Shown: in pieces, positions 3,701 through 15,202 of the stretch | How the letters are laid out: each line of letters starts with the position of its first letter | Numbering within the stretch: the first letter of the stretch is position 1 | Assembly (NCBI GenBank): GCA_947462335.1 | Contig: OX381704.1 | Location: 20,600,442 to 20,664,441 of the forward strand | DNA: 64,000 nucleotides | Source: Harmothoe impar | Taxonomy: Eukaryota; Annelida; Polychaeta; Phyllodocida; Polynoidae | Direction: 5' to 3' | Program-made: the position numbers and the translations under genes | Notes under the pieces: generated by a model | The model's input: the letters and a program-made list of their open reading frames with translations, nothing else | The model's database searches: none | Told to the model about the DNA's origin: nothing

Positions 3701-6700
3701 CTGTGTTCTGATATGTATCTGTACATGTGCAACATGGAAATGAGTAGCTTATTGACTTCAACGGTCAACCTAGCAAAGCAAAACAGGAGCGACCCTAGAT
3801 ATTATCCAATTTTTAATATTTTAGCCATTTTAGGCTATTTTAGCATTGATATGACACAAGACGAGGCCGCGGTCCTCAAGTTGCCGCCATAGATCGTGAG
3901 TCAATTTCCGTTTAGTTGTGAGGCCCAAGTAAAATAGAAATGAATCCAACCCAACTAATGACGATCTTTAGACCATGTTCAACCAGTGTATACGAAAACC
4001 TTTTCACCATGCAGGACATTCGGTCCTGCAGATTTCTTTCTTTGCAGGCCCGGCACAATTTTTGCAGGCCGGGATATTGGAGCACTATCTAGCTATTCAA
4101 AAATGCAATATAAAGCAAGTGTTTGTACTGGCAATGATAATAAATAGGGTTCCCCCTATATGTTACATTATATTAACCATTTTAAAATGTAAATTATTGA
4201 AGAACATTACAGAAAAATATTTACGCTTTCTGTTTTATGCTGTAGAAGGCTAGTAGTATAGTATGTATCGGAACGGGACTATAGTTAAGTACTGTTTATT
4301 ACTCAATCGACATGCAGCCAATCAGAGGCCTCCATTTGGTCACGTGACCCCCTCATTTGCATAATTACGTAATAGGCCACGCCCCTCATTTGCATAATTA
4401 CGTAATAGACCACGCCCCCTTGATCACCAGCTAATCAGGGGCCCCCATTTGGTCACGTGACCCCCTCATTTGCATAATAGACCACGCCCCCTTGATCACG
4501 TGACCCCCTCATTTGCATAGTAGACTACGCCCCTTTGATCACCAGCCAATCAGTGGCTTCCATTTGGTCAGGTGACTCCCTCATTTGCATAATCATGGAT
4601 CACGTGACCCCCTCATTTGCATAATAGGACCACACCCTCTTGGTCACGTGACCGGAAGCGCTCTTTATTTAGAAAATAGGCCACACCCCCTTGGTCACGT
4701 GACCTGACCCCCTCCCTCATTTGCATAATATAGACAATAGACAGACTACGCTTCCCTTTTGGTCACATGACTTGGACTAGCTAATGGGAGGCTTCTATAA
4801 GGGGCGAGGGGAGGGGAGGGGGGGGGGAGGGGGGCACTTTAAGATGCATGGGGAGGGGAGGGGGGGAGGGGGGCACTATTTATGGGGTGGGCGGGCACTT
4901 GGGGGGGAGGGGGGGCTTTTGGGGTCTGCTCGGGAGAAAAAAAAAAATTATCTGATCTCTAGGGAATCGCTTCCTCTCTACCCCCCTTTAGGGGGGGTAG
5001 GGAGGAGGCGAGTCGGAGGTGACTGTAGAGGAGTTTTTCGGTGACTTGATGCTTTTCAAACGACTGTGCTGATAGTTGATGAATTTGACTTTTTGACTTG
5101 AATATTTCATGCGACTTTGTGACTTGTAAGCGAAAGCGAAAGCGACTTTGCGACCCGTAACCCTTTAAATAAAGAGGTGGCTTTGTAACCTCAGGGGGGA
5201 GATCCTTCTACACCCCCACGGAGTAGAAAGGATCTCGGTTGATTGACTGTACTTTGACTTGTTGTTGTAAACAAAAAAACAAAAAAAAAAAAAAAAAAAA
5301 AATCAATGAATAGAACGACCCCCTCATTGCTAACAAAGGAACGACTTTTGAATTACACAAATGACCCTCTTTTTGTAGGGGTTAGCGGTAACTCGACTTG
5401 AATTAGAGTATTAGGGAGAGCAAAACGCGACTACACACTGTCTCAGACTGTCGTCTTACGGCCCGGATAACAATAACCCTAGTTACCTCGGTTACTGTTG
5501 CTCAAGAGACGGCGATGGATCTGGTCACGTGGATACTGAAAGAAGGTCTACCTATAACCACCACGCTAGTTTGAACGCGGCGGGTATGAGTCATCATGGG
5601 GCTCTTGACGGGTGGGTCCTCCCCATGCAGCCGTATGTCGAATTTAAGAAATGGCCATGTCACACGTCACTAAGGGAGAAAACGTTTTTTGAAAATATTT
5701 AGAACCCGAATTTGAGCATTCTGGTACATTTTTAAGGACCCAGACACTGCAAAGCCGAGTACCATCCAAGAGAAAAAAAAATTTGGCGAAATGTTTAGGC
5801 TTGAAATGGTACTTTTCTGATGCACTCTTTGAACATTTTTTTTTTTTTTCCTCATGTCACTATGGTCCATGGCACATGAGGGACTCAAGAAATGCCACAT
5901 GTCCCATGTCACTTAGATGTCCGTGCCCGTGTCGTCGTATCGAATTTTAAGAAAATGCCCATGTCACCATATCGAATTTAGGGGTCTAGTGACATCAGCA
6001 TGTCCGGCTATCCTCCACAAATTTAGCTCTAAAATGTTTACTTTTTTTTTTGGGCTGATTTTTCATCATTTTAAAAAACAATAGGTTGTTTGAAATGTTT
6101 GCTGTTGTAAATAGAAACAAAAACAAAACAAAGCGCATGGTAAGATTATGTCACATTTTCAAGTGGCGGGTCCGCGCGAGGCTTATTCAGCCTCTTCGTG
6201 GATCCGCGACTCCAATGTGATCATATACTAATCACCGGTGTTTACGGTATTATATACTAAGGTATGAGACGGGTCTTACAGAAAAGGTGTCTAAAGAGCC
6301 CTGTGACCTGATTGAAATGACGTCAGCGCCGTCTGCTCGTCAGTGCCCGGCTGTAGCCCGTAGGACATGTTATTCTGCTTTTCTGGATGTTTTGAAATAT
6401 TTTGATTTAACTGTTAATACCTGATAACAAGCCTCTGAAGCAGATTTTTGGTCGAGCACCTGTTCTCTACTCTTCCATCGATTAGCTGCTTCAGCAAAAA
6501 AAAATCGCGCGCGCGGTCTAGTCTATATGACGGAGTCGCTAAAGCTCTGTTTAGAGAGTGGAACTTGACCTTGAGTATAGACTCAGTACTAACTGAACGC
6601 CCCGCGGGGTCACCCCTCACCACGTGGGAATATGTACAAGCTCTGGTTCTTCACTTTACGGCTTGACTAAAACTGAGACGCGTCCATGATAAACTCTAGC

Positions 6701-15202: not shown

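Follow-up and report, generated by a model that had tools for sequence, protein, structure and literature searches.

Is an insertion that ends like a Polinton and holds none of the Polinton genes a passenger of Polintons, or does it belong to a different class of terminal-inverted-repeat (TIR) element with a cargo of its own? The question is raised by a 9.7-kb insertion in the genome of the polychaete Harmothoe impar, and it touches on a group of elements, the Polintons, that have been assigned a place close to where many eukaryotic DNA viruses arose. We analysed the stretch of 64,000 nucleotides that contains the insertion (assembly GCA_947462335.1, contig OX381704.1, positions 20,600,442 to 20,664,441 of the forward strand), hereafter the window; coordinates given without a contig name are those of the window. 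A preliminary description, made from the letters of the window, had put forward both alternatives.

Boundaries and target-site duplication

The mobile element spans positions 4252-13940 (9,689 bp) and its tips read AGTAGT...ACTACT, that is, (AGT)2//(ACT)2. Comparison of the flanks revealed a target-site duplication (TSD), AAGGCT, at 4246-4251 on the left and at 13941-13946 on the right. The exact TIRs, 134 bp long and 100% complementary, occupy 4252-4385 (plus strand) and 13807-13940 (minus strand), and a longer, imperfect match at 88.9% extends over 383 bp on the left (4252-4634, plus strand) and 393 bp on the right (13548-13940, minus strand). Long TIRs, AG/CT termini and a perfect 6-bp duplication on either side of 4252-13940 had all been proposed in the preliminary description, and all three stand. 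Polintons are described with a 6-bp TSD (PMC10045372), and the commonest ends reported for vertebrate Mavericks combine (AGT)2//(ACT)2 tips with a TSD of this length (PMC8097293).

The flanking DNA has features of its own. An O-methyltransferase exon (Methyltransf_2) of a host gene, at 2013-2156 on the minus strand, adjoins the insertion. A repeat of about 54 bp occurs on both flanks, at 4017-4069 and 14006-14059 (score 51; the 30 shuffles reached 32 at most), and is not relevant to the element. Further to the right, two identical 136-aa frames lying about 1 kb apart (15733-16143 and 16738-17148) form a local direct duplication.

Copies in the host genome

The species' own assembly (1,511,831,793 bp in 736 contigs) was searched with positions 7100-7840 as an interior probe. 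All 40 places scored matched at 100% over 741 bp, on contigs C1-C7, and the copy number is at least 40, these being 40 of 1,173 first-look candidates, with the 1,133 others left out. Over positions 5600-8000, 30 loci differ from the window by 0-0.42% substitutions (mean 0.25%) along up to 2.4 kb, in a sample of the best candidates scored that is biased towards young copies and in which one locus aligns over 1.2 kb only. So many near-identical copies point to recent amplification. A DNA search of the genome with the TIR gave no match and did not return the window's own TIR either, so that it carries no information on copies.

Ends were fetched for ten copies chosen from the 40 scored places. 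Every left end starts with AGTAGTATAGTATG, and the tip is accompanied by a perfect 6-bp TSD in all ten, seven of which were recovered at once, two after a wider search and the last (GACTGT) by reading the tips. With the window included, the 11 TSDs are all distinct. The 134 bp of the left TIR are found at 100% in seven copies and at 99.25% in two, while in the remaining one the match covers the first 114 bp only, at 98.2%. The duplication length read in the window thus holds in 10 of 10 fetched copies, as do the (AGT)2//(ACT)2 termini. Chance as the origin of the structure was ruled out by the TIRs, the TSDs and the copies.

A 6-bp TSD is also produced by IS3EU and GingerRoot elements, whose termini are described as mostly TA...TA, with an occasional TG...CA in GingerRoot (PMC10045372), and the bases beside the tip of the window element are T...A. 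However, it is the AGT...ACT boundary that gives 6 bp, whereas a TA...TA boundary, one base further out, shrinks the duplication to 4 bp (AGGC), so that the AGT parse is the one compatible with a 6-bp TSD; moreover, eight of the ten other copies have a base other than T ahead of the AGT tip. TA...TA termini together with a 6-bp TSD are therefore not what the element has, and IS3EU/GingerRoot was rejected, as were Ginger1 and Ginger2, which are described with TGTNR termini and a 4-5-bp TSD (PMC2836005, PMC10045372). We regard it as extremely improbable that the element belongs to IS3EU/GingerRoot, as another TIR superfamily with 6-bp TSDs, or to Ginger.

Interior of the element

A six-frame Pfam search of the whole element found no Polinton gene and nothing above the curated cut-offs; at E-values up to 0.1 it gave one weak match, unrelated to Polinton genes. 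No pPolB, rve integrase, packaging ATPase or adenain-like protease was detected in this way, in agreement with the preliminary description, which had seen no polymerase, integrase, ATPase or protease in the interior. For families that have a model the negative result is meaningful, because an O-methyltransferase stretch of 48 residues nearby was picked up in this way, as were genes of the partner element described below. Besides the two frames ORF1 and ORF2, the latter of low complexity, the element contains no unassigned frame longer than 170 aa.

ORF1 (7481-7834, plus strand) encodes 117 aa with a 30-aa tandem repeat and is predicted to be helical. Two close relatives were found among 123 candidates, and a query made of the alignment with these two brought the relatives in the protein database to six in all among 7,416 candidates. 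They are 31-92% identical to the window protein and come from ENA records with contigs of 537-1,537 bp, which may include same-species copies, most of all the one at 92%. The number of 30-aa repeats varies among them while the C-terminus is conserved, and ORF1 represents a protein family. In one relative (P0006) the likeness extends upstream of ORF1 to positions 7201-7305, a stretch interrupted by a stop in the window; such records therefore hold related element DNA beyond the gene alone. The DNA of ORF1 is identical across 30 loci, which were picked for matching that very stretch. An AlphaFold2 model built from three sequences comprises two helices, one of them long and the other short (mean pLDDT 90); a fold search with it in a viral library gave 31 listed matches, none with E ≤ 0.001, and a sequence search of the PDB gave none. 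ORF1 and the end patterns likewise gave no match in the viral contigs searched, and a search of the genome contigs gave none either.

ORF2 (12022-13425, plus strand) encodes an Ala-rich protein of 467 aa with 13 LDTYD-type units. Its stop-to-stop frame measures 477 aa in the window, and it is likewise open in two further copies, where it has lengths of 476 and 483 aa. With residues 1-135 as the query, 7,995 candidates were scored and none was a relative at E ≤ 0.01. The two repeat-built proteins announced in the preliminary description are thus present, one made of 30-aa repeats and the other of LDTYD-type units.

Between the two genes lie a (TG)n microsatellite (8065-8187, plus strand), near which the alignments of several copies break, and a tandem repeat with a unit of 400 bp, present about three times (8701-9967, plus strand). 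The latter had been described as exon-like: the repeat exists, but its exon nature was rejected, as the codon-position counts (5/3/6, 9/4/9 and 6/1/3) show no clear bias. The hairpin cluster that had also been noted (10182-10412, plus strand) is sound. It comprises hairpins at 10182-10208, 10234-10253, 10254-10276, 10289-10325, 10349-10369 and 10383-10412, and the region 10120-10430 folds with z = -4.7, none of 100 shuffles being as good. Rfam searches at the gathering threshold and tRNA searches found nothing.

An integrase-bearing partner

The enzymes missing from the window element are in part carried by another one, element A, with which it is reciprocally nested. Element A (10,512 bp; C1 121961122-121971633) lies between two copies of CACTAT, its own TSD, and is inserted in copy 9 of the window type (right tip at C1 121958201, left tip near 121978428). 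The uninterrupted counterpart of this site in the window is a single ATAGTG at 11071-11076, which is duplicated in copy 9 (C1:121.96-121.97 Mb). Conversely, copy 1 of the window type sits inside another copy of A, its flanks matching A at 100% over 350 bp and at 99.8% over 1,244 bp; 6 bases, positions 4859-4864 of piece L059, belong to both matches. Each element thus occurs as an insertion within the other, and the uninterrupted counterpart has the 6-bp target once. The preliminary description had proposed a search for empty sites with one AAGGCT, the target of the window's own insertion; sites with a single target 6-mer were found for these two insertions, each within a copy of the other element. 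A further insertion brings copy 1 to a length of about 13.9 kb, and the reverse-transcriptase-like frames of this insertion presumably mark it as resembling a non-LTR retrotransposon; the locus (L051, L032, L052) displays three layers of mobile DNA, namely this insertion in a window-type copy in A.

By Pfam, one frame of A matches rve above the cut-off (3e-13) together with Chromo below it (0.0012), and the ATPase frame matches Adeno_IVa2 above the cut-off (7.1e-5) and Pox_A32 below it (4.4e-4). The protease frame matches Peptidase_C5 at 2.9e-4, with 21.0 bits against a cut-off of 21.3, and its best match in the PDB is adenain, at E = 0.25 only. A also has frames with lengths of 375 aa, 147 aa and 240 plus 197 aa, which have no Pfam match and may resemble Polinton virion proteins. 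No DNA_pol_B_2 match was obtained in any frame of the pieces covering A, a search that a domain split at a piece boundary could escape, though a polymerase of 1,000 residues hardly. The TIR of A measures 392 bp at 98.7%, and an Ala-rich open frame of 254 aa (L056:721-1482, plus strand) ends at 121971122, the tip being at 121971633.

Shared ends

The comparison took in five ends, namely both ends of the window element, both ends of A and the right end of another copy of A. In all six cross-kind comparisons, exactly the first 99 bp are common to both elements. This terminal core occupies 4252-4350 on the left (plus strand), where it starts with (AGT)2 and includes the palindrome GGTCACGTGACC as well as a CCAAT box, and 13842-13940 on the right (minus strand, read inward). 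Outside the core, a subterminal stretch of 48 bp at 13481-13528 is also found in A at 95.8% (L056:1633-1680). The Ala-rich frames, ORF2 and the 254-aa frame of A, each stop some 0.51 kb before the right tip in the orientation drawn, a likeness of position and composition.

The ends homologous to those of the window element are thus carried by a Polinton-type integrase element and not by a different transposase class, the outcome that the preliminary description had set against its own reading. A shared end on an element with an rve integrase, a packaging-type ATPase and an adenain-like protease also argues against IS3EU/GingerRoot and Ginger.

The comparison bears as well on whether the element is an internal-deletion derivative, that is, an autonomous Polinton that lost its core genes and retains leftover accessory DNA with no function of its own. 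The ends and the short subterminal stretch in common with an integrase-bearing element would fit such an origin, and non-autonomous Polintons have been named in print (Polinton-1N1_DR, PMC9341505). However, contiguous homology to A stops at 99 bp, two pieces of A (L055 and L048) have no match to the window, and the ORF1 relatives, at 31-92% identity with a conserved C-terminus, point to a long-lived gene. We consider a deletion origin possible but unlikely.

Subterminal arrays

Immediately inside the core, both TIRs carry arrays of an octamer, ATTTGCAT. The left array (4355-4726, plus strand) has seven of them together with CACGTG and CACGCCC boxes, and the right one (13602-13837, minus strand) has five. 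Besides these 12, there are none in the 8.7-kb interior and four in the 54 kb outside the element. The total of 16 in the window compares with a mean of 4.7 and a maximum of 9 in shuffles, although the octamers are not independent events, since they are placed in tandem repeats. None occurs within the terminal 700 bp of element A, which ruled them out as part of the shared 99-bp core.

In adenovirus, an Oct-1 (NF III) site in the inverted terminal repeats (ITRs) is reported to promote growth or replication (PMC2685984, PMC5717082). The likeness to that origin lies in terminal repeats with an Oct-1 (NF III) site and an Sp1-type box near the start of replication (PMC2685984, PMC5717082). The window element differs in having 12 octamers in arrays, and no full NFI site (TTGGCN5GCCAA) was found. 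As the octamers lie outside the shared 99-bp core, an origin role for them is a lead only.

Polymerase loci

With 83 of 695 candidates scored, the host genome yields at least 129 matches to DNA_pol_B_2. The 28 top-ranking ones score 96.5-106.7 bits, with further groups below, and 27 of these 28 lie in open frames of 1,133-1,189 aa (two of them with one internal stop). So many loci with similar scores, mostly in open frames, suggest recent multiplication. Flanks of 9 kb on each side were read at two of the 28 (C1:44038500-44059500 and C4:13270000-13291000), where runs of long open frames on one strand have what we take to be a Polinton-like arrangement. These flanks contain nothing that matches the TIR over its first 100 bp, the loci's own ends not being recognised, and they have no similarity at the DNA level to either the window or A. 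The pieces flanking each polymerase gave no 40-bp inverted repeat between them, so the ends of these two elements were either not reached or not recognised. By DNA comparison they belong to a different lineage from A.

These loci bear on a more elaborate reading, in which the window element is part of a split (multipartite) Polinton. Separately integrated segments of about 10 kb would have a common 99-bp terminus, with integrase, ATPase, protease and probably capsid on A, ORF1 and ORF2 on the window element, and the polymerase on a third segment. The two elements are similar in size (10,512 and 9,689 bp), have exactly 99 contiguous terminal bp in common, are nested in each other and both lack pPolB by Pfam; in each, an Ala-rich frame is directed towards one tip and stops some 0.51 kb short of it, and the 48-bp subterminal stretch is present near that tip in both. 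All of this would agree with a divided genome, but no polymerase segment with the 99-bp end was seen beside the two loci read, whose own ends were not recognised, and A could be no more than a Polinton from which the polymerase was lost. We judge a split genome to be improbable, and equally so its corollary that the segments are replicated, perhaps packaged, together as in segmented viruses.

Proposed mode of spread

We conclude that the element is very likely a large, coding, non-autonomous Polinton. This was the first of the two alternatives raised in the preliminary description, and it is favoured by the 6-bp TSDs, the ends in common with an integrase element and the sites with a single 6-mer. 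It is compatible with a split genome and with a deletion remnant and requires neither, both being versions of how such an element arose.

Polinton ends without Polinton genes, and 99 bp in common with an integrase-bearing element, make it probable, on sequence grounds, that the element relies on borrowed enzymes for its movement. Element A, resident in the same genome, would supply the integrase that recognises both ends of the window element through the common 99 bp. A Polinton-type polymerase acting in trans may carry out protein-primed replication from the repeated AGT tip, and pPolB supplied in this way would copy both A and the window element by jumping back at that tip. Such a jumping-back role is expected for the tip repeats of Mavericks and has been likened to the adenovirus mechanism (PMC8097293). 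The linear copy would then be inserted with a 6-bp stagger, the stagger itself being evident from the TSDs. ORF1 and ORF2 would travel with the element, and ORF1 may serve its spread or its competition with the helper.

Comparison with known systems

Vertebrate Mavericks are described with (AGT)2//(ACT)2 or (AG)3//(CT)3 tips, TIRs of 46-1,447 bp and sizes of 12.7-24.6 kb (PMC8097293). The window element resembles them in its tips, its 6-bp TSD and a TIR within this range, whereas at 9.7 kb it is smaller than the sizes given there (PMC8097293) and it lacks pPolB, integrase, ATPase and protease. It is also unlike the Polinton with which it is nested, for it has octamer arrays in its TIR and A has none in its terminal 700 bp. 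A passenger that has only 99 contiguous bp in common with such a partner, and yet multiplies, points to a likely minimal cis-acting Polinton end.

The N in Polinton-1N1_DR stands for non-autonomous. Because this zebrafish Polinton has been named in print, the kind of element is already known (PMC9341505). The likeness is to a Polinton named as of the non-autonomous type, and the comparison is by name alone (PMC9341505); the present element, for its part, is 9.7 kb long, carries its own gene family and has a core of 99 bp in common with an integrase-bearing element. A coding passenger of nearly 10 kb with an exact 99-bp common end was not found among the matches listed from the open-access literature. 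With a protein family of its own, the passenger is closer in appearance to a satellite than to the remnant of a deletion; should the segments turn out to depend on one another, this would be a transposon-virus with a multipartite genome.

Gene-carrying non-autonomous TIR elements are otherwise known from the Pack-MULEs (PMC6431247). As described there, these are TIR elements with other genes inside that are moved in trans, as the present element probably is (PMC6431247). ORF1 need not be a captured host gene, and the present element is set apart from them by its Polinton-type ends.
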